Origin: Zhaonella formicivorans
Lineage (GTDB): Bacteria > Bacillota > DUOV01 > Zhaonellaceae
Assembly: GCF_004353525.1 (NCBI RefSeq)
Contig: NZ_CP085524.1
Coordinates: 878,001-942,000, forward strand
DNA length: 64,000 bases
Direction: 5' to 3'
A model generated the notes under the pieces. It saw only the letters and a list, made by a program, of their open reading frames with translations, made no database searches and was not told where the DNA came from. Positions 21,127-47,236 of the stretch are shown here, piece by piece (within the stretch, counting starts at the first letter, position 1; each line of letters opens with the position of its first letter). The translations under genes were made by a program, and so were the position numbers.

Positions 21127-22317
21127 TTGAACATTGCTCTGGCTACCGGTGACCATGACTTGAACAGAGCAATAAAGGAGAGGGTAAAAAATTATGGGTC
21201 AATCATAGAATTCAGCTGCAAAGAGGAAATTGGGGTATCTGCAGATATTGAGTGCTTCATACTCTCTTCCTCCCTGGCAGGGGAAATTTCCTGTGAAAAG
21301 CTGCTGGAATCAATTATTTCTAAAAACAAAAGGGTTATCTTAATTGCTGCTGTTGAAGAGAAGGACCTGGTCGAATTTGCGTTGACTCTTGGCATCTATG
21401 ACATCGTATTTCAACCCGCCAGGGTTGAGCTTATCATAAAACTGCTTTTTGAACCGGCAGGATTGGATTATGTGTCTGAGTTTGTATTGAATAAAAAAAT
21501 GCCGGAAATAAATCACTATGTAATGCCCAAATATGTAATTAAAGAGCAGTCTGCCCGGGCTAAAATATCAGCCTGGTGGAGTGCCCAGGGCAGGGCAGGG
21601 AAAACGTCTTTGGCGGTAATGCAGGCAGTTTGGCTTGCGAGGACGTATCCCGAAAAAGTTGCATTGCTTGACTTTAAGGAAGTTACGCCTCATGTGCATA
21701 AATTTCTCAAGCTTGAAACAACCGCAGGCATCGAATGCCTTTATGAGGCCTTTGAGCAGAATTCTTTGACTGCTGTTAAAGTTCTGGAGCATATGCAAAA
21801 GAAATATGGAGTCTATTTCCTGACTGGTGTGGGTTTAAAAAGCTTTTATAAATTTACTGAAAAGTATTTTGGCAAGGTACTTGAACTGTTGAAAACGGAA
21901 TTTGATTATATTGTAGTTGATTTAAATGATGGACTTTTCTTTTCGTCTACTGCTGCTGCGCTGCAGCTGGCAGAAGAAATCAATGTGGTTTTACTGCCTC
22001 ATATGTATTTACTGGAAGATACCAGAGACATGGTTAATTTTTTAAAGGATAAATGGGATATAGAGGACAGATGTATCCGGTTTGTACTAAATAAAACCGG
22101 TTCAGGCAGCTTAGAAGCGGAAACGGTGGAAAGGGTGTTCAGGAAATCTGTAATGTGTGTTATTGAGCATAAAGAAATTGCAAAAATTGCTTATGGTGGT
22201 CAGCCATATATCTCGGGCATTGCTTCTGTGTTTGGCAGCCAGAAATCAAAAGGTGAAGAAACATTATTCAAGAGAAGCTGGCTGGGGAGGGTTGTTAATG
22301 CTGGTAAATCCGTATAA
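21127..22317 (+). CDS. tadZ: TadZ/CpaE-like pilus assembly ATPase
   Basis: 396 residues starting at TTG behind AGAGAGGTG. A receiver-like N-terminal domain (about 1-115) precedes a MinD/ParA-type ATPase domain with a deviant Walker A QGRAGKTS near 157-164 and VALLDFKE. TadZ/CpaE proteins localise Tad pilus machinery at the membrane. It is the first gene of the pilus operon and overlaps cpaF by 20 bases. A distant paralogue lies at 50008. Confidence 0.78.
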   Translation: MNIALATGDHDLNRAIKERVKNYGSIIEFSCKEEIGVSADIECFILSSSLAGEISCEKLLESIISKNKRVILIAAVEEKDLVEFALTLGIYDIVFQPARVELIIKLLFEPAGLDYVSEFVLNKKMPEINHYVMPKYVIKEQSARAKISAWWSAQGRAGKTSLAVMQAVWLARTYPEKVALLDFKEVTPHVHKFLKLETTAGIECLYEAFEQNSLTAVKVLEHMQKKYGVYFLTGVGLKSFYKFTEKYFGKVLELLKTEFDYIVVDLNDGLFFSSTAAALQLAEEINVVLLPHMYLLEDTRDMVNFLKDKWDIEDRCIRFVLNKTGSGSLEAETVERVFRKSVMCVIEHKEIAKIAYGGQPYISGIASVFGSQKSKGEETLFKRSWLGRVVNAGKSV

Positions 22318-23458
22318 CATTGGTCTGATAAATCCGACAAAGCAAATAAGCCAGGTCAAGCAGCCTTTTGAAAAAATGACCGATGAAATTATAGAAGAAC
22401 TGCTGCTAAAAAAACTGGATTTAATCTCCGGCGTACAGCAGGGTAAGTTTACCATATCTTCTGTAAAAACAGAAATAAGGGGACTGGTTGCTGAAAAGAA
22501 TTTACGTCCGGAAAACCTTGATGAGTTTGTGGAGTCGGTTGTTAATAACCTGTTTGGCTATGACCTACTGCAGCCTTATATAGAAGATCCTGATGTTAGC
22601 GATATTCTTGGCAATAACCATAATACATTTTATATTAAGAAATTCGGAGTAAAGATACGTATACCAGTTGATTTTGGCAGTGAACAAAACTATCTTAAGT
22701 TTCTTTACAAGGTGGCTGCAATTTGTGGAGACAAGATTGACGAAAACATGAATGCTGAAGCTGTGTTTTCAGACAAAAAAAGGAATATGCGCATCGTAAT
22801 ATCACTTAAGCCTGTTAGTGCCAAGGCCCCTACTATAGCTATCCGAAAGCACACCCGTACTTACTCCCTGTGTGAACTGGCTGAAATGGGTATGCTGGAC
22901 AGGGAGCAAAAGGACTTGCTGCATGAGGCAGTGCTTAAAAGAAAAAATATTATTATTGCAGGGAAGGGAGGTTCGGGAAAAAGCACGCTGCTTGGCGCAT
23001 TAATTGCTCTGGTGCCTTACACTGAAAGGGGGTTACTCATTCAGGAGACTTTTGAAATCGAACCGGAACATCCCGATGTTGTCTGTAAGCTTGTCAGACT
23101 TTCGGATAACCCTTTTGTAAAGGACTACACCCTTTTTGACCTCACTAAGATAGGTCTGCTGATGAGTATGGACAGAATATTTATCGGAGAGTTGAAAGAC
23201 CGGGAGGCCTTTGACTTTTTCAATGCGGTTTTTACAGGACATGAGGGAAGTATGGCCACTGTCCACGCTCCTTCAGCCGGGCAGGTGATAGAAAGGTTAT
23301 TACAGCTTATGGCCAGAGCCAACACAAATGTTGCTTATGAAGAACTGAAAAAAATGCTGGCCGAGACCCTGGATATTGTTGTGTTTATGAAGGACTTTAA
23401 GATAAAAGAAGTTTTTAACCTTAAACAACAACGGAAAGGAAACGGGGAGGTATGCTAG
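22298..23458 (+). CDS. cpaF: CpaF/TadA secretion ATPase
   Basis: 386 residues from ATG 22298 (GGGGAGG upstream); a longer frame begins at 22157 inside tadZ and is not needed. The N-terminal part has NLFGYDLLQPYIEDPDVSDI, typical of CpaF/VirB11. Walker A is GKGGSGKST near 222, followed by EIEPEHPD, Walker B RIFIGELKD, and TGHEGSMATVHAPSAGQVIERLL. It powers pilin polymerisation in Tad systems. Overlaps the next gene by 7 bases. Confidence 0.9.
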   Translation: MLVNPYNIGLINPTKQISQVKQPFEKMTDEIIEELLLKKLDLISGVQQGKFTISSVKTEIRGLVAEKNLRPENLDEFVESVVNNLFGYDLLQPYIEDPDVSDILGNNHNTFYIKKFGVKIRIPVDFGSEQNYLKFLYKVAAICGDKIDENMNAEAVFSDKKRNMRIVISLKPVSAKAPTIAIRKHTRTYSLCELAEMGMLDREQKDLLHEAVLKRKNIIIAGKGGSGKSTLLGALIALVPYTERGLLIQETFEIEPEHPDVVCKLVRLSDNPFVKDYTLFDLTKIGLLMSMDRIFIGELKDREAFDFFNAVFTGHEGSMATVHAPSAGQVIERLLQLMARANTNVAYEELKKMLAETLDIVVFMKDFKIKEVFNLKQQRKGNGEVC

Positions 23459-24381
23459 AGGCGACGGGTATTATTTCGTTTGCACTGATTTTTTTTGTTG
23501 CCTACCAGTTTTCTCTTGAACTGGAACATAAGGAACGGTTAAAAGCAGTGCTTAGGAATAATTTTTTGGGCACGAAAGCCTTATACGATAGGCTTGCAGG
23601 TGAATACCTGAGGGAAAACAAGTTTTATATCAGTGTGTTAAAGTACCTGAACAGTATAATATTACGTTCAGGCATACGAAAGTATTTGCCCTGGTTAAAC
23701 GCTGTGTGGCTTATGGTTTTTCTGCTTTTGGCTTTTCTGGTTGCTGCCTTGATCTTAAAAAACTTTGGTTCTATTGCTGCCGGCGCTTATGGCCTGACTT
23801 TTGCCCTGGCCCTGCTGGCCGTATTGTTTCTGATGGCAGCTATTAACAAACAGGCAGTACGAAAGATGTACCTGACTTTTTTAAATGTTTACACAGGGTT
23901 TATTAACGTTGAGAAGAATGAAATCAACGCTTTGGAGCAAACTGCACGGTATATGGAGGAACCTTTACGGTCAGTCATCAGGAGGTGGTGTTTCAGGTAT
24001 AAAATCTCCAATTTGAGTATTGATGATTTTTTGGATGGGATTTTATCCGAGATTAGCGACAGGGAATTTAGAAAGTTTATTAAGTTTACCAGGATGAACC
24101 TGAAGTATGGGGGTGATTACCGGAAAGCTTTGGAGAAAATGAAAGAGCAGGGGGAGAGACTGGCAAGTATATACGCTTTGAAAAGTTCGGGTGCTGTTGT
24201 TGGAACAGGAGCCATCCTGTTTATGATTGTACTGGACTTGCTGCTGCTGTTTTCCCTGACAGGGGAACCGGAGACTATGCTATATCTGAAAAACTCCCTG
24301 AAAGGCCAGATGATGCTCGCTGCAAACGCAGGGGCTATTTTATTTTCCCTCTGGGTTATTTTCAACATTAACAGGGAATAG
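23452..24381 (+). CDS. tadB: TadB-like pilus platform protein
   Basis: 309 residues. A short N-terminal hydrophobic segment, two central segments (about 84-135) and two C-terminal ones flank a cytoplasmic domain, as in the T2SSF/TadB platform. MEEPLRSVIRRWCFRY and FDDFLD-like helices precede the last membrane pair. It is paired with the TadC-like protein that follows. Confidence 0.72.
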   Translation: MLEATGIISFALIFFVAYQFSLELEHKERLKAVLRNNFLGTKALYDRLAGEYLRENKFYISVLKYLNSIILRSGIRKYLPWLNAVWLMVFLLLAFLVAALILKNFGSIAAGAYGLTFALALLAVLFLMAAINKQAVRKMYLTFLNVYTGFINVEKNEINALEQTARYMEEPLRSVIRRWCFRYKISNLSIDDFLDGILSEISDREFRKFIKFTRMNLKYGGDYRKALEKMKEQGERLASIYALKSSGAVVGTGAILFMIVLDLLLLFSLTGEPETMLYLKNSLKGQMMLAANAGAILFSLWVIFNINRE

Positions 24382-24401
24382 GGGGGATCTGAATAGGTGT
24401 A

Positions 24402-25214
24402 TTGCTGATTTTACCGGTTTCTGTTTTGATTACTGTTGCCTTAATTCTTGTGGTAGAAGAAATACGCATTTACCGGCTGGCCAGAAGGTTAGGGATTAAA
24501 GGGTTTTTGGGACATGTTGATTCTTATATACGCACCCGGCCCAAACTGAATGTAAATGCCATTGAGCAAAAGATTAAAAAAGCCGGGACCCCTTTTAACA
24601 TGACACCTGCTGCTTATTATATGGCGAAGGTGCTCCTGCCGGTATGTTTTACCTTCTATGCATTTTTTACCGGGCAGGGGCTTTATGTCCTGGTTTTGTT
24701 GATGGCGGCAGGTTTTTTTCTGCCGGACGCGCTGCTTTTTTCCAAAATACGAGACCGGAGAGAAATGTTCAGAAAAGAATTTCCCGAAACGCTCGATATA
24801 ATCGAACTGGGAATAACAGCCGATGTGCCTCTGGAAGATATTTTTCTCCTGGCTGCTGACGCAGCGGAAGGGGCTGAGCTTAAAAAAGAGCTGCTAATGT
24901 TGTCAGCCAGGTATTTTGTTACAAAGAATAAGGAAGAGTGTTTGCAGCATTTTACTGAAAGCGTGGACATACCTGAAGCAAAAATATTGTCCATGGCCCT
25001 GCTGCAGGGTGAGAAAACAGGCAGGACCAGGGAAATCCTTTCTTCTGTCTCTTCCGGTATGTTTAATGCAGTTCAGGCAAAAGCAGGAAGGGGTGAGAAA
25101 AGCGTTGAGTACAAGATTTTATTTGCTGTTGTGGCCTTAATGGCAAGTTCTGTCATGCTTTATATGCAAGTTTATTTTTCAAACTTAGAAAGTGGGTTAA
25201 AAATATTATTTTAG
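24402..25214 (+). CDS. tadC: TadC-like pilus platform protein
   Basis: 270 residues from TTG 24402; no ATG is available near the GGGGGGA upstream. Membrane segments lie at the N-terminus, at about 70-108 and at the C-terminus. The block RREMFRKEFPETLDIIELGITADVPLEDIF is the T2SSF-domain signature. Together with TadB it forms the inner-membrane platform for the pilus ATPase. Confidence 0.72.
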   Translation: MLILPVSVLITVALILVVEEIRIYRLARRLGIKGFLGHVDSYIRTRPKLNVNAIEQKIKKAGTPFNMTPAAYYMAKVLLPVCFTFYAFFTGQGLYVLVLLMAAGFFLPDALLFSKIRDRREMFRKEFPETLDIIELGITADVPLEDIFLLAADAAEGAELKKELLMLSARYFVTKNKEECLQHFTESVDIPEAKILSMALLQGEKTGRTREILSSVSSGMFNAVQAKAGRGEKSVEYKILFAVVALMASSVMLYMQVYFSNLESGLKILF

Positions 25215-25233
25215 TAACGAGGGAGGAAATAAA

Positions 25234-25422
25234 ATGCTAAAGAAAGTCCGTGAGATTTTGAAAAGCAGAAAAGGAGCCAATGAGGTGATTGCCTTTGTAA
25301 TACTGTTAATTTTTATTTTGCTGGCGGTGGCACCTAAGGTAAAGGGGATTGGGTCAACTACCGGGGCCGGTGTTGACAAATTAAACAACGATCTAAAAGC
25401 TGAACTGGGCGTAACTCCCTGA
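25234..25422 (+). CDS. Flp-pilin-like small protein
   Basis: 62 residues. A short basic leader ending in SRKG is followed by ANEVIAFVILLIFILLAVA, a class III prepilin arrangement that the peptidase at 34347 could cleave. The Glu is at +3 rather than +5 of canonical Flp pilins, so this may be a variant major pilin. A good ribosome site GGGAGG precedes the ATG. It overlaps the next gene by one base. Confidence 0.65.
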   Translation: MLKKVREILKSRKGANEVIAFVILLIFILLAVAPKVKGIGSTTGAGVDKLNNDLKAELGVTP

Positions 25423-25889
25423 TGAAAGGAGTAAGGGGCAGGAAGCTTGGGCTTTCTGCCCCGGTAAAAATGCTTAAGAGGTTTGCCAGTAAGGGTTCTA
25501 CAGAGATTATAGCTTTTATGCTAGTGCTGCCGTTTTTGCTGCTGCCAATCCTGAATACGGTTAAAATGCTTGAAACACTTACTAAATATGAAGCTATCCG
25601 TCAGCTTGGCAGGATGTATGTTATCAGAATGGAGACAGAGGGCGGACTAACGCCGGCGGCATTGTATGAACTGAATTTGAAACTGCAGGAGAAGGGGCTG
25701 GAACCCGAAAAAGTCCATCTGGACTATACTCCATATCCGGTGCCGTATGGTGAGGAGGTAAAGATAAAGATCAGCTATGACTACAAGGCAACCAGCTACA
25801 CCATAGGGCTGGGGGGAATTACGAAGAATGAGGAAAATTACACCATGGTTTACGGACCTTTATCATCAGTCAGCAAGAAATATGAGTAG
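25422..25889 (+). CDS. Pseudopilin-like protein (TadE/DUF4320 type)
   Basis: 155 residues. A cytoplasmic leader ends KGSTEIIAFMLVLPFLLLPI, a prepilin-like cleavage site followed by one hydrophobic helix, and then a small extracellular domain. It resembles the TadE or DUF4320 proteins of clostridial Tad-like operons. Its stop codon lies within the start of the next gene. Confidence 0.6.
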   Translation: MKGVRGRKLGLSAPVKMLKRFASKGSTEIIAFMLVLPFLLLPILNTVKMLETLTKYEAIRQLGRMYVIRMETEGGLTPAALYELNLKLQEKGLEPEKVHLDYTPYPVPYGEEVKIKISYDYKATSYTIGLGGITKNEENYTMVYGPLSSVSKKYE

Positions 25890-26400
25890 CAACAGGGGCT
25901 CGGCCACGCTGATCCTGGGGCTGTTATTTTTTTTTATTTGCTTTAGTTTTTCGCTGTTTGTGGTTGAAAGTAAGTTTCTAAGGTTAAAAAAGGATCTGGC
26001 TGACGATGCGGTGGTGGCGGCAGGGCTGGCTGCTTTAAAAAGCGCTTTGTCTGAGAATATTGCTTACGGGGAATATGAGCTTGACAGGCAGTTGGCGGAA
26101 GAAACTTTTATACGGCACCTGGCAAATAATTTGAAGCTTGACGGTAACCTGAACGGACTGCCGGGCAGTATCGTAGCCGGTCAGCTTGTTATTGAAAGCC
26201 TGGTTGTATATAACCCGGAGGATATTGCTCCAGGGCTCACTTGCCCTAGTGGTACACCGGTAACGGAAACAACCATACACGTTGATTTGAACTTTAGAGT
26301 TAGAAGGCCGGTCTTAACCGGTCTTTTTGGTGAGTATATTACTGTCAGAATTCACAGGGATGTGGGAAATGATTATCGGTTGGAAGAGGTGGAAATGTGA
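25882..26400 (+). CDS. Pseudopilin-like protein (TadE/TadG type)
   Basis: About 172 residues from ATG 25882, which overlaps the upstream stop (ATGAGTAG) for translational coupling. A short leader with NRGSATLILGLLFFFICF gives a single N-terminal helix, then a charged helix and a beta-rich region ending RVRRPVLTGLFGEYI. It is probably a minor pilin. An upstream in-frame codon at 25828 overlaps the preceding gene and lacks a ribosome site. Confidence 0.6.
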   Translation: MSSNRGSATLILGLLFFFICFSFSLFVVESKFLRLKKDLADDAVVAAGLAALKSALSENIAYGEYELDRQLAEETFIRHLANNLKLDGNLNGLPGSIVAGQLVIESLVVYNPEDIAPGLTCPSGTPVTETTIHVDLNFRVRRPVLTGLFGEYITVRIHRDVGNDYRLEEVEM

Positions 26401-27032
26401 ACAGGAAGCGTCTGAAAATAATTGCCTTTTGTACATTGCTTGCGTTGGGGCTGAGTTTTCTTCAGTATAACTACTTTCGTTCCCTGGGAAAAAAAGAGCC
26501 TGAAACTGGGGTTCTGGTTGCCAAGGAGTTTATTCCTACCGGTGAGCCTGTAAACGGCAGGGTAGAGATTAAACATATTCCCGCATCGGCAAAAGTAAAA
26601 AGTATGGTTGAAAATATAGGAAAAGAGCAGGTATATGCCAGGACTGATATTTCCGAAGGATCCTATATCCTTAAGGATATGGTTTCTGTCGTTGAACTGC
26701 CGGTTATTAAGGATGACACGAGGCGGGTTATAATTGCTGCGGATATGGTTTCAGCTTTAGCAGGGAAAATTAAACCAGGGGATAAGGTGGATATAGGGTT
26801 TGTGCCATCCGGGAAAGATGTCGGCAGTGCGGAAATAAAGGCTTATGAAGTGCCGGTGCTGGAAGTGTTTAATGAGCAGGGAGAACCTTTAAACGCTGCT
26901 TCCGGCTCTAAAAACGAGTACCAGCCTGTTTCAAGGATACCGGCAGCAGTTGCGCTGGCAGTAACCGGGGAACAGGGGCTAATGCTTAAAGAGCTTGAGA
27001 CCAGAGGCAAGCTCTTTTTGTTGGGGTATTAA
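26397..27032 (+). CDS. cpaB: CpaB/RcpC-like SAF-domain pilus protein
   Basis: 211 residues from GTG 26397. An N-terminal signal-anchor (about 9-24) is followed by a SAF-type domain: VLVAKEFIPTGEPVNGR, ARTDISEGSYILKDMV, DDTRRVIIAADM and GDKVDIGFV. CpaB/RcpC proteins assist Tad pilus assembly at the cell surface. It is the last gene of the operon starting at 21127, with overlapping or nearly overlapping junctions throughout. Confidence 0.75.
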   Translation: MNRKRLKIIAFCTLLALGLSFLQYNYFRSLGKKEPETGVLVAKEFIPTGEPVNGRVEIKHIPASAKVKSMVENIGKEQVYARTDISEGSYILKDMVSVVELPVIKDDTRRVIIAADMVSALAGKIKPGDKVDIGFVPSGKDVGSAEIKAYEVPVLEVFNEQGEPLNAASGSKNEYQPVSRIPAAVALAVTGEQGLMLKELETRGKLFLLGY

Positions 27033-27103
27033 GAGCCAGTAGAGTATTTGGAAATATTGTTTTGTAATAGTTCTTCTGCTTTTTCTTTTGTGGAGCATAC
27101 ATA

Positions 27104-27281
27104 GCCTTTCGGTCGGCTTTGATTTTACTGCCCCTCCGGCCTTCGGCAAGGGTATAGGGCCGTGAACATATCCTCCTGGGTGAAATGAAAGTAATATGCA
27201 GTCCGGTATCCTTCCCGGCCCCTGCCATGCAGCCCTTGCCTCAGCCCTGTGGAGCAGGATGCAGCAATCAAGCCGAAAGGC
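27104..27281 (+). repeat. Dispersed structured element, copy A
   Basis: A conserved core at 27162-27216, containing CATATCCTCCTGGGT and ATGCAGTCCGGTATCC, is enclosed by nested inverted arms. These are GGGCCG / CGGCCC (27157-27162 / 27216-27221), GGCAAGGG / CCCTTGCC (27145-27152 / 27233-27240) and an outer stem GCCTTTCGG / CCGAAAGGC (27104-27112 / 27273-27281). The same core recurs at 36041 and 55103 with different arm sequences that still pair. It lies between cpaB and a small zinc-finger gene; no protein gene is convincing here. Confidence 0.75.
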
Positions 27282-27307
27282 AAATGTTTAAAAGGGAGGA
27301 GAAAAAA

Positions 27308-27526
27308 GTGTTTCCAAGCAAAATTGGGATGGAAGTTGTTAAGTTGGAGCAGATGAGAGATGCGGAAATTGAGAGGGTTAAATCTTTGTACAGGGAAAAA
27401 CTCCGGGGACTGCAAAGCATATGTCCGCATGCTTACGATAATGGCGTTTCAGCAGTAAAAGAAGTAAGACATGGGTTTAATTTGTATGAGTCCAGGTGTG
27501 ATATTTGTGGGAAAAGATTAGGCTGA
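27308..27526 (+). CDS. Small zinc-finger-like protein (72 aa)
   Basis: From GTG 27308 behind GGGAGGAG. An N-terminal helix rich in Glu, Lys and Arg is followed by SICPHAYDN and RCDICGKRLG, four Cys/His ligands that could bind one zinc ion. Function unknown. A longer frame begins inside structured element A and is not supported. Confidence 0.55.
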   Translation: MFPSKIGMEVVKLEQMRDAEIERVKSLYREKLRGLQSICPHAYDNGVSAVKEVRHGFNLYESRCDICGKRLG

Positions 27527-27605
27527 TGGTATGGTAACAGGTGTTGCCGTATTATTTTTGCTTGGTTAAAATAAATCTTGTAAGTAAAGGTTAATCCTTC
27601 CAGCT

Positions 27606-27677
27606 CCCCTTTCGTGCAGCCGTGTGGCGGTGCGGTCCATTGGCAGTGCGGTGTCAGTGGATTTTGCACGAAAGGGG
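27606..27677 (+). promoter_or_regulatory. Long inverted repeat sequestering a ribosome binding site
   Basis: CCCCTTTCGTGCA (27606-27618) pairs perfectly with TGCACGAAAGGGG (27665-27677). The right arm overlaps the Shine-Dalgarno AAAGGGGGTGG of the gene at 27686, so the hairpin would block its translation. Confidence 0.6.
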
Positions 27678-27685
27678 GTGGTGTT

Positions 27686-27835
27686 ATGGGCTGTTTTTGG
27701 TCTTTTGTACTTAATGTCTTAAGCCAAATCATTGCCGCGTTAGTGGCAGATTTGGTAAGGATTAAAGGCAAAAGTAAAGAAGAAAGACGGCTCCGCAACA
27801 GCCGCCTTTCTTCCAAAATCCAGAAACACCATTAA
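27686..27835 (+). CDS. Small membrane peptide (49 aa)
   Basis: From ATG 27686: MGCFWSFVLNVLSQIIAALV is a hydrophobic helix followed by a strongly basic tail. The size and layout, and the sequestered ribosome site, recall toxins of type I toxin-antitoxin pairs, but no antisense RNA promoter was identified. A hairpin CGGCT / AGCCG within AAGAAAG / CTTTCTT (27778-27811) overlaps the 3' end of the frame. The membrane peptide might also be a regulatory or leader product. Confidence 0.45.
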   Translation: MGCFWSFVLNVLSQIIAALVADLVRIKGKSKEERRLRNSRLSSKIQKHH

Positions 27836-27933
27836 CACTTTGGGGCTGCACCGCCCTACTTACAGTTATATTATACCACATCGAGTAGTTTTTGTTACAT
27901 TGTTTATTCAAATATTCCGGGGAGGTTGTACAA

Positions 27934-29019
27934 ATGAAGAAAGTTTTAACTGTTGTGTTGCTCATTGCTTTATTAGTATCGGTTACCCCAGTCTGGGCTA
28001 AGGCTGAAAAGGTATCAAAAACTACAAAGGATAGTGAATGGTTTGTCGGCCAGATTGAAACCTTAGAGGAAGCTAAAAAAATAGCTAATGAGCGCATGGG
28101 AAAGTTAACTGTTCCTCATTGGATTCAAAAATACGATGAGATAGGAAATGGTTATGTAGAGGAAACTACTAGGGAAGTTGAAAATGTTGTTTTTATTCTT
28201 AAAGGACAAAATAAATACTTAGTTGAAGATGTGGGGGCATGGACTCTGTTCACCGACAGTCCTTACTTTGAAAGTGAAATTAAAGCAAAATTATTTGACG
28301 TGGCTTTTGACATGGTGCTTTCATATCCCGAAATAGAACTAGTATCTATTAATGACACTCCCTGGCAGGAGACGGAGTACAAGGATTACTTTGTCAGCGA
28401 GGTCAAGAGGCTTATCAGGGAAGGGGCCGGTTCAGCGTTCAGTATGCTGAGGAACAAAGACCCTTATGCCTGGCAGGTGTTTTTAAACCCCAAATACAAC
28501 GGCAGGGCTTATGAGATTTTCAACCCCAAAACAAGGGAAGAACAGGAATCTGCCGTAAAAATTTTAAGTGAGCTGGAAGTGCTTGACCCTTCATATTCTC
28601 TCCCTGACAAGCGACCAAGCGACGGAAATATTTCCGCTCAGGCGGTGCTGAAGCTCAACGACAACAAGGTTGTTATTGTTAAAAACGGGGCTACGGAGAA
28701 AGTTAACCGTCTGGCAGTGAGGCTCCAGGCCCCGAAAGGCGTCACTATGGTACCGCTGCGGGGCGTTTTGGATGAACTGGGCGCTGATCTAAGCTATGAT
28801 GGTAGAAATAAACAGGTGATAATTAAACAGGGTAATTCAGAAATTGTTTTGAAAGAAAACAGCAGGACAGCTAAAATCAACGGCCAGGCAAAGGAGATAG
28901 TTGCTTCCATGCAGATTCAAAACGGCAGGGCCATGATACCCTTAAGGCTGGTTTCAGATGCTTTGGGATATACTACTGTCTTTAATAGCATGACTGGTGA
29001 AATTACGGTTACTAAGTAA
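27934..29019 (+). CDS. Secreted protein with copper-amine-oxidase-N (stalk) domain
   Basis: 361 residues from ATG 27934 (GGGGAGG upstream). A signal peptide of about 25 residues ends WAKA. The central part is unassigned (YPEIELVSI, NPKYNGRAYEIF). The C-terminal 100 residues form a copper amine oxidase N-terminal-like domain: VPLRGVLDELGADLSYD, VIIKQG, and MIPLRLVSDALGY. Such domains are common in surface proteins of spore-forming clostridia. Likely exported and cell-wall associated (inference). Confidence 0.75.
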   Translation: MKKVLTVVLLIALLVSVTPVWAKAEKVSKTTKDSEWFVGQIETLEEAKKIANERMGKLTVPHWIQKYDEIGNGYVEETTREVENVVFILKGQNKYLVEDVGAWTLFTDSPYFESEIKAKLFDVAFDMVLSYPEIELVSINDTPWQETEYKDYFVSEVKRLIREGAGSAFSMLRNKDPYAWQVFLNPKYNGRAYEIFNPKTREEQESAVKILSELEVLDPSYSLPDKRPSDGNISAQAVLKLNDNKVVIVKNGATEKVNRLAVRLQAPKGVTMVPLRGVLDELGADLSYDGRNKQVIIKQGNSEIVLKENSRTAKINGQAKEIVASMQIQNGRAMIPLRLVSDALGYTTVFNSMTGEITVTK

Positions 29020-29100
29020 TAAAATAAAAATTAATCCCTGGAGCTTATAGATGGCTTACGGGTGTTTTGTTATACTTGATATTAGGGTGGTGGTGCAAAC

Positions 29101-29460
29101 ATGGAAAAGGTTTTGATGCAAATATTAGATGAAATAAAAGGTGTAAAAGGTGAAGTTTGCAGTTTAAGAAGTGACGTTAACGACCTCAAGGTACGTATGG
29201 GCCGCTTGGAGAACCGTATCGACGGCATGGAGACGCGCATGGGCCATGTGGAGTCACGTTTGGACGGTATAGAGTCACGCATGGACCATATGGAGTCCGG
29301 TCTTGGTGTATTAAATAAAACTACAGTACGTATTGAGCAGAAGCTGGACATGGTATACCAACAAACCGGCATGTTAACCGAATTCAAGACTGAAACGGAA
29401 CAAAAGTTTAAAACTCATGATATGGAAATTCAGCTCTTAAAGAAAGCTGTATCACATTAA
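29101..29460 (+). CDS. Coiled-coil protein (119 aa)
   Basis: Almost entirely heptad repeats (VRMGRLENRIDGMETRMG, VESRLDGIESRMDHMESG). It resembles the generic coiled-coil proteins often annotated DUF1640- or t-SNARE-like. No membrane segment. Function unknown; it might organise the adjacent surface proteins. GGTGGTG precedes the ATG and a perfect terminator follows. Confidence 0.65.
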   Translation: MEKVLMQILDEIKGVKGEVCSLRSDVNDLKVRMGRLENRIDGMETRMGHVESRLDGIESRMDHMESGLGVLNKTTVRIEQKLDMVYQQTGMLTEFKTETEQKFKTHDMEIQLLKKAVSH

Positions 29461-29468
29461 ATTTAATT

Positions 29469-29487
29469 GGGCCTTAAGGCCCTTTTT
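29469..29487 (+). terminator. Rho-independent terminator
   Basis: GGGCC / GGCCC with TTAA loop and five T. Confidence 0.8.
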
Positions 29488-29512
29488 ATTTTGGCTTTAG
29501 GGAGGGAAAAAG

Positions 29513-32500
29513 TTGAGGGCAAAAAAAATAACTGCCTGGGTATTACTGCTGGCTGTATTAGTTTTATTTTTACCCCATAGTACTAATAAAGCTGATGCAG
29601 CGACCTGGGTGCCGGACCCGAAAGACCTGGGCACGCTGGAACAGAGAAAAACACCGGTTACGGTAACTTCAGTGACTAATGAGGGTACAGGAAATAAAGT
29701 TTTCCATGATTACTGGCAGATGAAAGTATATGATATTTCAGGAAATTACTTGGGTTCCGGCGAGACCATAGGCGTTGCCAATTCGGGCGGCGACCCCAAA
29801 GGTGGCGTATATAACTATGTGCCCAGGTCAAAACTGGCCGAATGGGTGGAGCTTCTCAATGGCAATTATTCGCATGTTAACAATAACTTCAGTAATTTTT
29901 CAAGCACGTTAAGCGCAAACGGTAAATCTTCAACAAGGATGTGGATACAAAAGTTTGACAGGCTAAACGGGGCCTATACAGAAAACTTTGATGTGACAAC
30001 TAAAACTGCCAGGTTAACTGTAACTCCGTATCCTACGGCTAAAATAACCTATGACAAGTCTACCCGGGCAGGTGAAACTGAGACATTTTCTTTAACAGCG
30101 CAGGGCTATGCGGCATATAACAGGGGCTTAAGCAAATGGGCCTTTTATGTTGACGGAAAAAGAATTTCTTATGGTGATAAAGTAGCAAGTCTTTCAGGTA
30201 AAACAGTCACATATACTTTTGCTATTGCCGGAACGTACACAGTAAAGTTAGAGGTTACGGACAACGTAGGCAGGACGACAACAGAACAAATTACCGTTAA
30301 AGTTGACCCGGCGGCGGCACCTCCCGCCCCAAAACCGCCTTCCAGCGGGCTGGTGGCTGATTTTGAAATGCCTTTCAGTGCTTTAGTGAATACGAACGTG
30401 CAAATTAAAAATACTTCATATACCACCGGCAGCAACTGGATAACTTATGCCGAATGGACAGTCAGCCCCAAGAGTTATACTGGCAGCCTGACAATGCCTG
30501 GTGGAACATTAAAATTCACTCAGCAAGGCACATACGATGTCACTCTAAAGGTTTGGGACAACACAAATAACAGCGATTCAGTAACTAAAAGCATTGTAAT
30601 TTCCGAAGAACTAGTTGAACCACCACCACCGCCGCCTCCGGTAGAGCCTGAGCCGGAAAATATACCGCCTACAGCCAGGATTTCAGGCCCTACTAAAGCT
30701 AAACAGGGGGAAACAGTTATTTTAGAAAACCAAAGCTATGACTTGGACGGGGAAATTGTCTATAACGAGTGGTCAATAAGTCCCAGCACCGGGGTAGATA
30801 CCAATTTTACTGATGAAGAAGCCAAGCTGACTTTCAACCAAGAAGGTACTTATACTGTCTACCTGGACGTAGAGGATGATAAGGGCGACGGGGATACAGA
30901 CAGCCATACGATAACCGTAACCAACCAGCCGCCAGTGGCCCGGATTGGCATAGTAGAGGAAGCTACTCAGGGTGAAGATGTTAACATTAAAAGCCTTTCT
31001 TATGACCCGGACGGGGAAATTGTTTCAACCGAATGGAGCGTTACACCAGAAGGCATGGTAGGTACACTGCAGGGTGAGGAAAATACAGTTTACTTCGATA
31101 CCCCAGGGGATTATACTATATCTCTTAAAGTTACAGACGAGTTTGGAAAAACCAGTACGGCATCTAAAACAATTAAAATTAAACCAGATATTCCGACTGC
31201 ATTTTTTGAATGGAGAGGTACACCCAAAGAGAATAGAAAATTAATCTTGGACGCAGGGAAAAGTGTGGGCAGCACACGTTATCCAATTGACTTTTCCAAG
31301 ACAAAATGGGAGTACATACCTTTGGAGGGACAGAACCCTGACAATATCAAGGTTAGGACTTCTTTAGACTTAAAAATCAGGGAAGTAATGTTTAAGGAGC
31401 CTGGCCGGTATAAAGTAAGGCTTGCAGTTACAAACACAGCAGGCAACACTTCGACCTGGTTTGAAGAAGAAATAACCATTATGCCCGATGAACCGCCGGT
31501 GGCCGATTTTATGCTGCTCAAGACAGTCCTCCGGGATGCGGCAGATGGAAGAACTGCGACAATAGAACCGCAGGATATTTCCTATAGCCCCGATGGAGAT
31601 ATTATTTCTAAACGTATCTGGAAATACAGGTACGATAGTGACAATGACGGTGATTTCAATGATGAAACATGGGTTACTTTGGATAATGGCAATAACCCTC
31701 TGCCCAGGCTTACTTCAGCGGACGTGGGAAAATATCAGTTTGAGTTATATATCGAGGAAAGCTTCGGGCAAGAAACCCTGGAGGAATTTATAGAACCGGC
31801 AGATGTAAAAAAAGCCGATACATCCTTAAAGATAGCTGCAGATAAAATTATTGAAGTTATAAACATACAGCCCGTTGTTGGCTTTGAAGTAAGCCCGAAA
31901 AAGAAAGTTAATATTGTTTTCAGTATAGGCCAATATAACAATATAGCAAGTTTAGATTCATTTATTAATTCAATTTTAAAGCCACAATTATTGGCAAACA
32001 ACATAGCCCTACAAATAACTAAAGATGGGCCATATAACTACCCTGTTCGCTATCAAAACCTTATCTCATATTCTTCTTCTTTTGCTGGTAATTATGGTGG
32101 TCCCGGAGGTGGGAACTATGCTGACGGGGGGTATTTGGTCAGCGATAGGTCATATTATTTTGCAAAAAACAGGTATATTGATATAGGGTATAATTTAAAA
32201 AAATCGGACTTTATTTCTCTTAGGTTTCAAGCGGTTACGGGTGGAGGTGTTACTTCATTAGAAGATATTTATTTCTATGTTAGCAACAATGGGAGTAATT
32301 GGGTATATGTAGGTTCTGCAAAAGGTAATAACAACAGTTCACCTGCTGTTTTGACTGTAAATAGTTCTTCTTTACCCGATAATATACGTTTTTTCCGTAG
32401 TTCAAACCCAAGATGTAACGATTACCTAATAGTTGATATTAATAAATCTACATCACAACTCAACACCACAATAACTAATACCTCTTTTAAGTCAACAGAA

Positions 32501-34333
32501 ACAAATTTTATAATAAACATTGATACACAAACACTTAATTTTTTAAGTGATACGCAAGCAAAATCCGATGTGATTACTAGTTTAATTAAAAATGAAGTTA
32601 ATTTTATTGGTATAGGCTCTGCATCTAATGCCTCTCAATATCAGCAGTTGGTTGATTCAAACCTAAATAACGGCTTGGTTATAACTGACGCTGAATTAGG
32701 GGTTGCCATTCAGCAACTAACCGATTATGTATTAACTGTCGTAAATAACAAAACCACTAACATTCAGTACGCCTTGCTAAACGAAGAAATAGATTATAAA
32801 ACTTACTATGAAGATCCAGAAAATGACCCTGAATACGCAAGGCGCTGGAAGTATGCACATGACCCGGCTTACTTTGAAAATAGCTTAGGGTTGGCCAGCT
32901 ATCACGAATTATGGGTATCGGATAAAGTAACAACTTTTGATCGCGTAGGAAAGTTTGACGTAATTTTTCAAGCCAAGGACAATCCGAAAAAAGACAACCG
33001 TTTCGATAACTACCGCCTGTGGAGCTATATGCCCTTAGACCATCTCACTATTTACGTCCACAGAAAGCCGGTTGCCTTATTTAGTTTTACTTTGACTAAA
33101 ATCAATCCGTCTACCTATGGCATTACATTTATTGATAAAGCATATGACTTGGATCACCAGTCCCTGCCGAGCAAAGGCATTACAGAAAGGGAATGGAAGT
33201 GGAGGGAACACGGTGAAACAATCTGGCATACTGGTCAACCATTTACCCTATCTGCCGGTAAAACTTATTATGTGATGTATAGGGTAAAAGACATGGAAGA
33301 ACAATGGTCAGACCCCAATGTAAAAGTTTTAACTACATCAGGTAATCTACCCCCGGTGGCCGAGTTTATAGTTTCACCCAGTACAGTACCGGTAAACAAA
33401 ACTGTGACACACCAGGATTTGTCTTATGACCCAAACGGTGACCCAATAGTGGAACGGGCCTGGCGTTATCAAAGACCGAACGGCACTTGGGTAAACAGTG
33501 GCGGGACTTTCCCTGGCAATGTTTACACGATTATAGGTGAGTACAGGATTGAACTAAAGGTACGGGATAGTCAAGGGGCATGGTCTGAGCCATTTTATCA
33601 AACCGTAACGGTAATTCCCGAAAACCAGAAACCGGTGGCCCAGTTCTCTATAAGCCCGGACCCTGTCATTTCCGATGAGCCGTATACCCTACGTGAGAAT
33701 TCCTGGGACCCGGAGGGAGACCCAATAGTTGCACGAGAATGGCAGTTCCAAAGGCCCGCTGACTCCGGCTGGGTTGACATTCCTTCCTGGAAAAGTACCT
33801 TCGACGAGATGGGGATTGATGAAGACGGAATATACAAATTCCGGCTCCGTGTGAAGGATGACCCTTCAGGCAGAAGCCCTGGTTTAACTCCCATGTGGAG
33901 TGACTGGACGGAGCAAACAGTTAGGGTTGAGGCTAAGCTGGTTGTTGACGGCGAAAGTGAAAAAAATACTTACGCTGCCGGCCAGGCCATGCTGTTGAAC
34001 GCCCGGACAGAAGGAAAGGCATACAAGGTGGAAGCCGTAATGTGGTATTCAAAGAATGATTTTGTTTCCACCAACGTAACTAGTTTAAAACCCGATTCTG
34101 CATTAACCAATCCACTACAGGACACTATGACTTGGCATAGCAGGAGAACCAAAGCCGAGGGAAGAGATTTGGTTGTAATTATACCGCTTGGCACTCCGGA
34201 AGGTACTTATCAGGTAAGGTTTACTGCATATAAGAAAAGAGCGGACGGAAGTGACAAGACAAGCGTTGATATAGTTAACATCAATGTTAAGGGAAATGTC
34301 TATGACCATTCCAGGTCAGAAATATTAAGGTAG
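29513..34333 (+). CDS. Large secreted PKD-repeat adhesin (1606 aa)
   Basis: Starts at TTG behind GGAGGGAAAAAG. A signal peptide ends about residue 31 (NKADA). Repeated PKD/Ig-like domains carry the motif YDPDGEI, YDLDGEIV or YDPNGDPI followed by Y-x-V/I-x-L-x-V. A proline stretch (EPPPPPPPVEPEPENIPP) lies near residue 370. Around residues 785-1085 an AT-rich insert reads VNIVFSIGQYNNIAS up to FIINIDTQTLNFL, resembling a von Willebrand A-like domain interrupted by a Gly/Asn/Ser-rich segment. No LPxTG anchor is seen. It may act as the mating or attachment adhesin of the element. Confidence 0.75.
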   Translation: MRAKKITAWVLLLAVLVLFLPHSTNKADAATWVPDPKDLGTLEQRKTPVTVTSVTNEGTGNKVFHDYWQMKVYDISGNYLGSGETIGVANSGGDPKGGVYNYVPRSKLAEWVELLNGNYSHVNNNFSNFSSTLSANGKSSTRMWIQKFDRLNGAYTENFDVTTKTARLTVTPYPTAKITYDKSTRAGETETFSLTAQGYAAYNRGLSKWAFYVDGKRISYGDKVASLSGKTVTYTFAIAGTYTVKLEVTDNVGRTTTEQITVKVDPAAAPPAPKPPSSGLVADFEMPFSALVNTNVQIKNTSYTTGSNWITYAEWTVSPKSYTGSLTMPGGTLKFTQQGTYDVTLKVWDNTNNSDSVTKSIVISEELVEPPPPPPPVEPEPENIPPTARISGPTKAKQGETVILENQSYDLDGEIVYNEWSISPSTGVDTNFTDEEAKLTFNQEGTYTVYLDVEDDKGDGDTDSHTITVTNQPPVARIGIVEEATQGEDVNIKSLSYDPDGEIVSTEWSVTPEGMVGTLQGEENTVYFDTPGDYTISLKVTDEFGKTSTASKTIKIKPDIPTAFFEWRGTPKENRKLILDAGKSVGSTRYPIDFSKTKWEYIPLEGQNPDNIKVRTSLDLKIREVMFKEPGRYKVRLAVTNTAGNTSTWFEEEITIMPDEPPVADFMLLKTVLRDAADGRTATIEPQDISYSPDGDIISKRIWKYRYDSDNDGDFNDETWVTLDNGNNPLPRLTSADVGKYQFELYIEESFGQETLEEFIEPADVKKADTSLKIAADKIIEVINIQPVVGFEVSPKKKVNIVFSIGQYNNIASLDSFINSILKPQLLANNIALQITKDGPYNYPVRYQNLISYSSSFAGNYGGPGGGNYADGGYLVSDRSYYFAKNRYIDIGYNLKKSDFISLRFQAVTGGGVTSLEDIYFYVSNNGSNWVYVGSAKGNNNSSPAVLTVNSSSLPDNIRFFRSSNPRCNDYLIVDINKSTSQLNTTITNTSFKSTETNFIINIDTQTLNFLSDTQAKSDVITSLIKNEVNFIGIGSASNASQYQQLVDSNLNNGLVITDAELGVAIQQLTDYVLTVVNNKTTNIQYALLNEEIDYKTYYEDPENDPEYARRWKYAHDPAYFENSLGLASYHELWVSDKVTTFDRVGKFDVIFQAKDNPKKDNRFDNYRLWSYMPLDHLTIYVHRKPVALFSFTLTKINPSTYGITFIDKAYDLDHQSLPSKGITEREWKWREHGETIWHTGQPFTLSAGKTYYVMYRVKDMEEQWSDPNVKVLTTSGNLPPVAEFIVSPSTVPVNKTVTHQDLSYDPNGDPIVERAWRYQRPNGTWVNSGGTFPGNVYTIIGEYRIELKVRDSQGAWSEPFYQTVTVIPENQKPVAQFSISPDPVISDEPYTLRENSWDPEGDPIVAREWQFQRPADSGWVDIPSWKSTFDEMGIDEDGIYKFRLRVKDDPSGRSPGLTPMWSDWTEQTVRVEAKLVVDGESEKNTYAAGQAMLLNARTEGKAYKVEAVMWYSKNDFVSTNVTSLKPDSALTNPLQDTMTWHSRRTKAEGRDLVVIIPLGTPEGTYQVRFTAYKKRADGSDKTSVDIVNINVKGNVYDHSRSEILR

Positions 34334-34346
34334 GAGGTAAAGTGTT

Positions 34347-34793
34347 ATTATTGATAGAGCTACAATGCTGCCCGTTCTTGGCCTGCTTGGCTACCTGAGC
34401 TATGTTGATATAAAAAAGAGGGAAGTGCCCGATGCCGCGGTACTGGCCCTCTTTCTTTATTCTCTTTTTGTTTTACTGTTTAATGCTGATCGATGGGGTA
34501 TGGTAATTGGGCACGCCCTGCTGTCTTTTAAAGTGTTTATAAGCTTTCTTTTATTGGCTTTTGTAACCCAGAGAGGTTTTGGGGGCGGGGACATTAAACT
34601 TATTTCCGCCCTGGCATTCTTTTTGGGAGATAATTTTTTCCTGCTGGCTGCTCCTGCAGCTATCCTGATGTTCTTTACCCTGGTATGGGCTTTTGGTACA
34701 GGAAAAGGTTTTCGTTATGAGATTCCTTTCGTCCCATATATATTTTTGAGTTATTTAACTGTTTGTGTCGTAAGGACTTACATGGGAGCCTAA
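34347..34793 (+). CDS. Prepilin peptidase (A24, CpaA/TadV type)
   Basis: About 142-148 residues with six hydrophobic segments. The two catalytic aspartates of aspartic prepilin peptidases are in DIKKREVPD (about residue 15) and GGGDIKL (about 77). It would process the pilins at 25234-25882. An ATG occurs at 34365 but lies 27 bases from AGGAGG; in-frame ATT codons at 34347 and 34350 are at normal distance, so a non-standard ATT start is possible. Confidence 0.82.
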   Translation: MIDRATMLPVLGLLGYLSYVDIKKREVPDAAVLALFLYSLFVLLFNADRWGMVIGHALLSFKVFISFLLLAFVTQRGFGGGDIKLISALAFFLGDNFFLLAAPAAILMFFTLVWAFGTGKGFRYEIPFVPYIFLSYLTVCVVRTYMGA

Positions 34794-34838
34794 GAAAAAA
34801 TTATAAAAAATTTCTAACCCGGAAAGGAGGAGAAAAAT

Positions 34839-35864
34839 ATGGCTGATCTGCTTAGGGTGGAAGGGATATACTCCCAGGGTTTCGGAATGCTGTCCAAAAA
34901 AATCATGCGTGACAGGAGGATCCACGTCATTGCCAAGTCTATATATGCCTATATAATCACGTATGCGGGGGCAGGCGAAACTGCTTTTCCGGGAAGGGAA
35001 ATGATTTGCAGCGACCTGGGTATTAACAAAAACACTTATACAAAATATTTGGGTCAGCTGAAAGATTACGATTATGTCAGGATTGAGCAGTCAGTAGGGG
35101 AAAAGGGGACTTTTGGGAATAACATTTTTACAATCGTTTCGATTCCCGCATTTCCTGAAAATGAAATCCACCCTAACTGGCAGAAGGAAAAGGAAAATGC
35201 AAAACTGAAGAATAAGACCGTGTCCCAAGAAATAGGACACGGTAATACAACCGAGCAAGATGTCCAACCGTGTCCTATTTCACCGTATACGGTCAAATGG
35301 GACACTAATAATAACAATATATTTAATAATAACAATATATATAACAACAACAACGATCTAGATACTAATTATTTACTAGATAATAATGAGGCTGCTCAAG
35401 AACAAGAAAAAGTTGTTGTTGTTGTTGAAAATACTCCAGAACAAAAACCTGAAAAGGAACCTTTGGTTTCCGAGGTACGAGAGGCATTATGTGAGATAGA
35501 CCCTGAACTGGTTGATGAAAGCCATGTGGAAATTTGGAAAAAGTATGAGCCGGAAAAAATACTGCAGGCGGTGGCGGTTTTAAAGCAGCAAAAACAGGTT
35601 GAGTCTGTTACAGGATTTTTGATTAAAGCTCTGGAAAACGGCTGGAAACCGGGCAAGGTTTACAAAGGAAGGGCAAGTCCAAATAAAGTAAGAATTTGTA
35701 TCAGTAAACTAAATGAGCTACTGGGCGAGGACTCTTCCGGGTTTATAAAAGCCAAGGCCGAACAAATTAGGCAGGTTTTTGAGGAACACCCTGAACAAGC
35801 AATCGTAAAAATAAAGAAAATGTTTGATAACTACAAAAAATACAAAGATCTTTATTTAAGCTGA
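34839..35864 (+). CDS. Helix-turn-helix replication-initiator-like protein
   Basis: 341 residues. The N-terminal winged-helix region (about 15-85) has SKSIYAYIITYAGAGETAFPGREMICSDLGINKNTYTKYLGQL, as in plasmid and ICE initiator-like HTH_36 proteins. A central Asn-rich low-complexity linker (about 150-190) follows, then a C-terminal helical domain with SVTGFLIKALENGWKPG, reminiscent of RepA/DnaD-like proteins. The linker DNA carries clustered dyads and an AT-rich tract (35218-35345). It may start replication of the excised element. GGAAAGGAGG precedes the ATG. Confidence 0.65.
   Translation: MADLLRVEGIYSQGFGMLSKKIMRDRRIHVIAKSIYAYIITYAGAGETAFPGREMICSDLGINKNTYTKYLGQLKDYDYVRIEQSVGEKGTFGNNIFTIVSIPAFPENEIHPNWQKEKENAKLKNKTVSQEIGHGNTTEQDVQPCPISPYTVKWDTNNNNIFNNNNIYNNNNDLDTNYLLDNNEAAQEQEKVVVVVENTPEQKPEKEPLVSEVREALCEIDPELVDESHVEIWKKYEPEKILQAVAVLKQQKQVESVTGFLIKALENGWKPGKVYKGRASPNKVRICISKLNELLGEDSSGFIKAKAEQIRQVFEEHPEQAIVKIKKMFDNYKKYKDLYLS
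35218..35345. other. Clustered dyads and AT-rich tract inside the rep-like gene, candidate origin
   Basis: CCGTGTCC (35218-35225) pairs with GGACACGG (35235-35242), which also pairs with a second CCGTGTCC (35268-35275); GGACAC recurs at 35300-35305. CCGTATACGG (35283-35292) is a perfect palindrome. TAATAACAATATAT is directly repeated in the AT-rich stretch to 35345. Some plasmid rep genes carry their origin internally in this way, so this is a candidate oriV. Confidence 0.42.
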
Positions 35865-36001: not shown

Positions 36002-36123
36002 ATTATACCGGTAGTCCTCCTTCCGTTAAGGGCAAGGGGAGTGAGCATATCCTCCTGAGAAAATATGAAAGTAGTATGCAGTCCGGTATCCCTCCCTCCC
36101 TGCTGCGCTTCGCTTGTACCCTT
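36002..36123 (+). repeat. Dispersed structured element, copy B
   Basis: Conserved core from about 36041 (CATATCCTCCTG, ATGCAGTCCGGTATCC). The arms are GGGAG / CTCCC next to the core and AAGGG with CAAG (36028-36036) pairing with CTTG and CCCTT (36113-36123). A GCG-CTT-CGC mini-hairpin lies on the 3' side. The 5' flank ATTATACCGGT is shared with copy C. The preceding 35888-36001 is gene-free and contains further short inverted repeats (CCCTG / CAGGG, TACTTT / AAAGTA). The rest up to 36323 shows only an ATGCT / AGCAT hairpin. Confidence 0.72.
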
Positions 36124-36323: not shown

Positions 36324-36575
36324 ATGCAGATTGATGTAATCAGGATTGGTAATTCCAAAGGAGTCCGCATTCCTGCTGCCCTGCTCAAGCAATGTGGAAT
36401 TGACAAGAGGGTTGAGGTTGAAGTCCAGGAGAACTGCATTATTCTTAAGCCGGTTAAGATTCCCAGAGAAGGATGGGCTGCTGCTTTTAGACGCATGAAC
36501 AGGAACGGAGACGATGTCCTTTTGCTGCCTGATGAGCTAGATAATGACCTCCTGGAGGAATGGGATGAATATTAA
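36324..36575 (+). CDS. mazE: MazE-like AbrB-fold antitoxin
   Basis: 83 residues. The N-terminal SpoVT/AbrB swapped-hairpin domain is clear: VIRIGNSKGVRIPAALLKQ and VEVEVQENCIILKPV. The acidic C-terminus DELDNDLLEEWDEY would bind and cover the toxin. It overlaps the toxin gene by 11 bases, the usual coupling. AGGAGGTACGTT precedes the ATG. Such pairs autoregulate their promoter and stabilise mobile elements. Confidence 0.85.
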   Translation: MQIDVIRIGNSKGVRIPAALLKQCGIDKRVEVEVQENCIILKPVKIPREGWAAAFRRMNRNGDDVLLLPDELDNDLLEEWDEY

Positions 36576-36891
36576 TCAGTATGATGTTTACTGGACCGAC
36601 TTAAATCCTGCCAAGGGGTCGGAAATAAACAAGGTTCGCCCTTGTGTAGTGATTTCTCCACCGGAAATGAATGCTTATTTGCGTACTGTTATTGTTGCTC
36701 CGGTTACAAGTAAAGGGCGGGAGGGTTATCCTACACGGGTTTATATGTCTGTAAGTGACGTATACGGCTGGGTTGTGCTTGATCAAATCCGGGCCATTGA
36801 TAAATCGAGGCTGTGCAATAAAATCGGCAGTTTGGACGAAAATGCAGTTTGTGCCATAAAAAGTGTGATTAAGGAAATGTTAGTAGACTGA
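36565..36891 (+). CDS. mazF: MazF/PemK-type mRNA interferase toxin
   Basis: 108 residues from ATG 36565 (GGAGGA upstream). Typical blocks are YDVYWTDLNPAKGSEINKVRPCVVISP, VIVAPVTSKG and VVLDQIRAIDKSRL. MazF toxins cleave single-stranded RNA at short motifs; the motif here cannot be predicted. Likely maintains the ICE against loss. Confidence 0.92.
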   Translation: MNINQYDVYWTDLNPAKGSEINKVRPCVVISPPEMNAYLRTVIVAPVTSKGREGYPTRVYMSVSDVYGWVVLDQIRAIDKSRLCNKIGSLDENAVCAIKSVIKEMLVD

Positions 36892-39826: not shown

Positions 39827-39926
39827 CCTTAGAAAATCCTCTAAGCATGCCAACGTATAGGGATTTTCTAAGGCAGGATAAAGAGCAGTACCTGCTCATA
39901 TACACACATACTAGGCAAAGCCTAGT
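39827..39926. other. Candidate oriT region
   Basis: Perfect 13-bp inverted repeat CCTTAGAAAATCC / GGATTTTCTAAGG (39827-39839, 39861-39873), then AGCAG / CTGCT (39884-39896) and ACTAGGC-AAA-GCCTAGT (39910-39926). The region is gene-free and immediately upstream of the RHH accessory and relaxase genes, the usual oriT location. The nick site cannot be fixed. The remainder of 39785-40070 is AT-rich without a gene. Confidence 0.6.
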
Positions 39927-46594: not shown

Positions 46595-47226
46595 TTTTGA
46601 AAATTAATAATAAGCCATTGAAACAAGCTTCAAAAAGCAGTGAAGGTTTGGGAAATACGGTTCAAAACTGGCTGCCTTTCAGGGACCTGGAGGACTACCT
46701 GATAAGCACAAAGGATAACCGACTTATTGCTGTGCTGAGGGTAATGCCGTTAAATATTAATTTAAAGTCGGATAATGAAAAGGGCAGAATTATTTCAGCA
46801 GTACACGAAGCTTTTAACGGACTGCAGTTTCCCATTCAGATTTTCGCGGTACCAAGGCCCATCGATCTTGATATGTATATAAGAAAACTACAGGAACTGT
46901 CTTCCGATGCGGGTAATTTTAAAAGAAAAACCTTGCTGCTTGACTATATAAGGTATGTAACCGGAATGGTTGCAGGTGGTGAAGCGCTGGAAAAGCGCTA
47001 TTATATTCTTCTTTCTGCTGAAAAAGGGAAAAATTCCAAAGCAGAGCTGCTGCAAAAGGCTCATGAATTAGGCTCTGGTTTATCACGGGCGGGATTAGCT
47101 GTTTCAGTTTGCGATGGGCAAGAGATTTTTGACCTTATGTTTACTTTTCATAACCCTGTGCAGGTGGCTTTTGAAAAAGCTCATGAAATTGGTATTAACA
47201 CTTATGTAACTTATTACGGTGACTAG
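46591..47226 (+). CDS. VirB4 N-terminal-domain-like protein
   Basis: 211 residues starting TTG and overlapping the upstream gene by 4 bases. LPFRDLEDYLISTKDNRLIAVLRVMPLNINLKS resembles the N-terminal region of VirB4/TraC-type ATPases, here encoded separately. No P-loop is present. It probably acts as a complex with the following ATPase. Confidence 0.6.
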   Translation: MILKINNKPLKQASKSSEGLGNTVQNWLPFRDLEDYLISTKDNRLIAVLRVMPLNINLKSDNEKGRIISAVHEAFNGLQFPIQIFAVPRPIDLDMYIRKLQELSSDAGNFKRKTLLLDYIRYVTGMVAGGEALEKRYYILLSAEKGKNSKAELLQKAHELGSGLSRAGLAVSVCDGQEIFDLMFTFHNPVQVAFEKAHEIGINTYVTYYGD

Positions 47227-47236
47227 GAGGTGCTTT

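Follow-up and report, generated by a model that had tools for sequence, protein, structure and literature searches.

A covarying hairpin family in a Zhaonella formicivorans conjugative element: probable single-strand origins and single-stranded-DNA promoters

Three copies of a nested hairpin

We examined a 64-kb window of the Zhaonella formicivorans genome (contig NZ_CP085524.1, positions 878,001 to 942,000) that contains a MobL conjugative element, with genes for a MobL relaxase, a coupling protein, TrbL, VirB4 and an M23 peptidase, and three copies of a structured element designated A, B and C. A repeat search of the window finds a 55-nt core at 27162-27216, 36042-36096 and 55103-55157 as a single three-copy family with all members in direct orientation, confirming the three same-orientation copies described in an earlier, sequence-only reading. 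A genome-wide search gave no further copies in the 3.31-Mb genome, and the three in the window are the only ones. Each core is enclosed by nested complementary arms whose sequences differ between copies, as that reading had also proposed; the stems are GGGCCG/CGGCCC in copy A (27157-27162/27216-27221), with further nested stems GGCAAGGG/CCCTTGCC and GCCTTTCGG/CCGAAAGGC, GGGGAG/CTCCCT in copy B, and CCCCTG/CAGGGG in copy C.

All of the following features are on the minus strand. The whole copy A hairpin spans 27104-27281, from one side of the outer stem (GCCTTTCGG, 27104-27112) to the other (CCGAAAGGC, 27273-27281), and its inner stem and core (GGGCCGGGAAGGATACCGGA...GGAGGATATGTTCACGGCCC, 27153-27221) score 55.9 bits (E 1.2e-9) with R2, a wider covariance model of the element family. 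A -35-like TTGCCG (27144-27149) is located within the stem 27145-27152/27233-27240, and a -10-like TAAAAT (27122-27127) is positioned 16 nt from it. In copy B the inner stem and core are at 36032-36101 (R2 52.5 bits, E 7e-9), with a -35-like TTAACG (36024-36029) at a spacing of 16 from a TATAAT -10 (36002-36007), or alternatively TTGCCC at a spacing of 22. Copy C forms a hairpin at 55040-55235 with an outer stem of 55040-55053/55221-55235, an inner stem and core at 55094-55162 (R2 42.4 bits, E 1.3e-6), a -35 TTGACT in duplex (55085-55090), and a TATAAT -10 (55062-55067) at a spacing of 17. A known RNA family was considered and rejected, as Rfam has no match at the element in the window and none above threshold at copy A or at 11 related loci.

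Covariation, folded strand and promoter-like boxes

A covariance model built from the three window cores retrieved relatives in genomes of the same phylum. Among 24 distinct Firmicute elements the covariation score of the inner stem and core is 0.345; shuffles give 0.105, with 0 of 500 reaching the observed value, and slid registers do not exceed 0.131. Pairing holds in 96.7% of the cells of these elements, and double-sided changes number 36, compared with 9.8 in shuffles. Outward of the CTTG/CAAG anchor 94 of 152 pairs are formed, against 49.6 expected and a stem-shuffle maximum of 71 in 5000, and the stem bearing the -35 covaries too. In a wide alignment of 61 distinct rows, fitted to the model so that its counts are biased towards it, the core pair at columns 17-53 is CG in 57 rows, GC in 2, AT in 1 and TA in 1, and is paired in all 61. 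The stem pattern is not chance, and the selection for folding deduced earlier from compensatory changes is borne out by the wide alignment and the shuffle controls, the test that the sequence-only reading had itself proposed. Its description of the core as nearly identical needs one correction, in that the core is itself paired and covarying, with an alternation of GAA/TTC and GAG/CTC in the supposedly conserved part that constitutes a double-sided change. The conserved hairpin tip on the folded strand is GG(G)ATACCGGA-[small hairpin]-GGAGGATATG.

Fold and covariation alone cannot separate the strands, nor DNA from RNA. Isolated mismatches in the variable stems are G.T in 19 instances and A.C in 2 on the strand reading GGATACCGGA, a T.G is invariant in 43 of 44 non-Firmicute inner stems, and the core strand gives the more stable fold in 56 of 60 elements. 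The folded strand in the window is the minus strand, the opposite of the one previously written out, and opposite to the downstream genes. A non-coding or leader RNA would fold on the transcribed sense of those genes; the mismatch asymmetry lies on the other strand, and the element is therefore not a leader RNA.

When the folded strand is modelled with DNA parameters, the -35 of most Firmicute elements contains TTG and is in duplex, the TATAAT-like -10 falls in an internal loop, and further duplex follows. At least five of the six TATAAT bases are found 24-35 nt past the core in 17 of 18 non-redundant Firmicute elements, compared with 15.5% per element in shuffles scanned over a wider window, and the mean unpaired probability in Firmicute elements is 0.67 for the -10, 0.08 for the -35 and 0.26 for the arm. 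The -35/-10 spacing is 15-17 in one Firmicute group, and in several members from Actinobacteria TAnnnT is found at 16. An ordinary double-stranded promoter was set aside because transcription from it would run away from the downstream genes, and because it would not require complementary arms. A transferred-strand hairpin that rebuilds a -35 and a -10 characterizes the Frpo and ssi sites of conjugative plasmids, and 17 of the 18 Firmicute elements have a -10 at a defined place on a strand that is presumably the transferred one.

Relatives, conjugation and downstream genes

Scanning 84,980 genomes for the pattern brought in 20 more loci, from Thermoanaerobacter, Caldanaerobacter, Pelotomaculum, Thermaerobacter and others, and a copy of the Thermoanaerobacter type proved to match a plasmid of Stenotrophomonas. 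The Stenotrophomonas element led in turn to 313 plasmid records (222 predicted to be conjugative), mostly of Burkholderia and Pseudomonas and also of Cutibacterium and E. coli, and the Cutibacterium core to 278 matching records. The family is thereby found in other Firmicutes and in plasmids of Proteobacteria, Actinobacteria and Cyanobacteria, and R2 is positive in 21 of 399 genomes of the phylum. In the F plasmid R2 also has a match (NC_002483, 54006-54063), which immediately precedes a leading-region methylase; this member (L090:7007-7064, minus strand) overlaps the 3' part of a small annotated open reading frame (ORF) and is separate from Frpo1 and Frpo2. Viral contigs gave zero matches with the exact pattern, and matches appeared once the pattern was loosened. 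In one tailed-phage-like contig the element adjoins terminase and portal genes (L131:9017-9071), and in the viral-collection contigs L128, L101, L164, L108, L150 and L179 it is followed by a small unassigned protein, several of these having an SSB-like acidic tail ending D-x-P-F. No description of the motif across phyla was found in the open-access literature searched, subscription papers being outside its scope.

Plus-strand conjugation genes of the window include the MobL-family relaxase (40456-41730; PF18555, E 5.8e-19), a type IV coupling protein (43227-45059; PF02534, E 1.7e-59) and a VirB4/TraC-type conjugation ATPase (47219-49033). A putative origin of transfer (oriT), the inverted repeat CCTTAGAAAATCC...GGATTTTCTAAGG beside a GC-rich run (39836-39880), is located upstream of the RHH and relaxase genes in an arrangement resembling the oriT of pLS20 (PMC5313138). 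Element and MobL-like relaxase occur together in 9 of 14 element-bearing genomes of the phylum versus 17 of 285 others (Fisher 1e-7, counted outside the window genome), and the core is opposite the relaxase gene strand in 10 of 10 copies from six conjugative regions (shared contigs G000, G035, G098, G112, G121 and G229). The prototype MobL relaxase, that of pLS20, nicks the template strand of its own gene, i.e. the strand opposite the gene (PMC5313138). The polarity of F is known, and its core is on the transferred strand, which makes it an independent case.

To the left of the conjugation genes there is a Tad/Flp-type pilus cargo (22157-35864) with T2SSE, T2SSF, RcpC/CpaB, an A24 peptidase and a 1606-aa PKD protein. 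A TubZ-like tubulin (37912-39273) in what is seemingly an integrated element suggests plasmid-like partition. IS110-family transposase loci are present at 51520-52605 and 55398-56560, the second apparently split in two frames.

Directly downstream of copy A is a plus-strand 72-aa ORF (27308-27526, alternative ATG at 27284) with no family match. The first genes downstream of copy B encode a MazE antitoxin (from 36324) and a MazF/PemK toxin (36544-36891; together 36324-36891, plus strand). Downstream of copy C is an ArdC N-terminal domain protein (57222-57989, plus strand; PF08401, E 2.7e-5), with the 55398-56560 IS110 element standing between the two; an IS110 bridge RNA was rejected as an account of copy C, as copies A and B have no adjoining IS110. 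In relatives the downstream genes on the template-compatible strand include ArdC, RadC, MqsA and HicB, with ArdC in C. acnes pTZC1, a methylase (MTase)-antirestriction-psiB series in Serratia p75, and methylases in Stenotrophomonas and Pseudomonas. Arsenophonus, pNAH20 and Pseudomonas CIP-10 are exceptions, with the left neighbour on the other strand.

A weak match to Rfam family RF01691 (Bacillus-plasmid RNA) in Stenotrophomonas pointed to plasmid pTA1060, in which RF01691 scores 60.9 bits at 6354-6409. The single-strand origin (sso) of pTA1060 is defined as 6349-6549 (PMC4595007), so that RF01691 itself falls on a DNA sso, which suggests that this Rfam 'RNA' is a DNA origin. ICEBs1 sso1, 76% identical to the pTA1060 sso, is an orientation-specific origin (PMC4595007). 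One family member (L087) shares an exact 19 nt, ACCGGACCGTAGGGAGGAT, with the pTA1060 sso, and a Brevibacillus site is matched by R2 and RF01691 alike. RF01691 does not match copy A at any E up to 10, and scores a related element (L089) at 16.7 bits against a gathering threshold of 31; the window copy is thus not an RF01691 member by Rfam's own threshold. By inspection, TAACC/GG(A)TTA of pTA1060 could pair as ATACC/GG(A)TAT does, with the same bulged A, and the computed lowest-energy fold of the pTA1060 tip has other pairs there. Six small plasmids with a 'protein rep' annotation (pTA1060, pLTK2, pPS1, Priestia, pBbsII and Leptolyngbya pRF1) carry the core on the strand that encodes rep. In rolling-circle plasmids the rep-coding strand is usually the displaced strand. 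A single-strand origin would be expected to be intergenic and orientation-specific and to lie on the displaced or transferred strand; these six plasmids and the six conjugative regions agree with this, and a microvirus and two actinobacterial plasmids differ.

Interpretation and comparison with known systems

Judged from its sequence, the element is probably a single-strand origin and single-stranded-DNA promoter of the sso-Frpo class, which would prime the second strand and early gene expression after transfer. Each copy would act while the conjugative element is single-stranded, with the minus strand, presumably the transferred one, folding into a long hairpin with the conserved tip. The stem would rebuild a promoter in which the 3' arm is the non-template and the 5' arm the template strand, the -35 in duplex and the -10 in an unpaired bubble, and host RNA polymerase would start in the hairpin and transcribe rightwards. 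The RNA would prime second-strand synthesis, as at the single-strand origins of pTA1060 and ICEBs1, and where genes follow could double as an early message for MazEF, the ArdC-type protein and further establishment genes, a role that Frpo has in F. Conversion to double-stranded DNA would abolish the hairpin and switch the site off.

Several observations weigh against this interpretation. The minus strand is assigned as the transferred strand by inference rather than by mapping, and the two actinobacterial plasmids have the core on the relaxase strand. A second Firmicute group has a linear -35/-10 spacing of mainly 20-22, although in some members a bulge in the stem may reduce it, the copy B -35 is poorly paired in the predicted fold, and Gram-negative members, F included, have no clear -10. 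R2 matches neither the pTA1060 sso itself nor Frpo1 and Frpo2 of F (L090). Some family matches are in contigs with tailed-phage genes, and in the microvirus (L240:1545-1602, PQ006669) the core is opposite to the sense of all its genes, where the gene sense would be the packaged strand, an arrangement that a single-stranded-DNA model does not explain.

The core's occurrence in a proven sso, and in very small plasmids that carry little more than rep or mob, would suit a hairpin that primes the second strand and does nothing else, its position upstream of establishment genes being incidental; the recurrence of that position in conjugative elements, directly upstream of establishment-type genes and on the template-compatible strand, makes this unlikely. 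The hairpin could instead recruit DnaG or a primosome, for which sites on single-stranded DNA are known (reviewed in PMC4595007), and the conserved tip could bind any host factor, the -10 being weak outside Firmicutes; with promoter boxes at defined places in Firmicute stems, we give this little credence. Fold and covariation are equally compatible with a structured RNA, either leader or small RNA, and RF01691 is filed as an sRNA. Even so, the non-coding RNA or regulatory leader that the sequence-only reading had offered is disfavoured, and appears more improbable still, given the folded strand opposite the downstream genes, a sigma70-type -35 and -10 inside the 3' arm, and a homologous core in an experimentally defined DNA single-strand origin. 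Its third suggestion, a mobile palindromic element, finds no support, as the flanks are not common to the copies, which number just three, are confined to one conjugative element and lie upstream of different genes. A cruciform or folded-DNA site for an element-encoded replication, partition or recombination protein, as the long inverted repeats and the carriage by microvirus and tailed-phage contigs (for which conjugation is not required) might suggest, is barely credible given the G.T versus A.C strand asymmetry and no protein partner seen common to carriers.

More tentatively, and with the balance of our judgement slightly against it, the apical motif could be a site that is recognized across phyla and loads a conserved factor of the host (probably RNA polymerase) on single-stranded DNA. 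The Gram-positive single-strand origins (RF01691 in Rfam), some phages, a site in F that had gone unnoticed, and the conjugative elements of Firmicutes, Actinobacteria and Proteobacteria would then be united by this one motif. Beyond a few model plasmids, little is known of the first copying and expression of the transferred strand. A simple search suffices to find the motif, which identifies the folded strand and indicates the genes that a conjugative element may express first in a new host, and the F plasmid of E. coli K-12 offers a testable site.

Among known systems, the STAXI motif is likewise structured, near SSB and antirestriction genes, and suggested as possible single-stranded DNA (PMC2864571), but consists of pseudoknot repeats; the window element has no Rfam match. 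EGeRS1 of pLS20-family plasmids (PMC8708921) resembles the window element in consisting of structured regions that occur in several copies ahead of establishment genes, again in a MobL plasmid family, but is much longer; its authors find the fold to lack a promoter and describe the transferred strand as non-template with respect to the downstream genes (PMC8708921), and on this description we set it aside as an explanation. With the pTA1060 sso the window family shares the tip, the CC/GG pairs, the bulged A and the 3-bp helix that follows (TAA/TTA for ATA/TAT, by inspection), as well as TTGAC in the 3' arm and a core on the rep strand; the inner stems and flanks differ from those of pTA1060 and RF01691, and the window has three copies, longer stems, a -10 bubble and a position upstream of establishment genes. 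A homologue of Frpo was rejected, since a scan for -35/-10 spacing reveals none in Frpo1/2 and R2 misses both; as far as tested the window family is not detectably homologous to Frpo, although it would appear to work like it. Frpo1 and Frpo2 of F and ssi2 and ssi3 of ColIb-P9 are transferred-strand stem-loops with a -35 and a -10 upstream of leading genes (PMC9849209, PMC11541004), and, as in the window, there are several copies in the same orientation per element.
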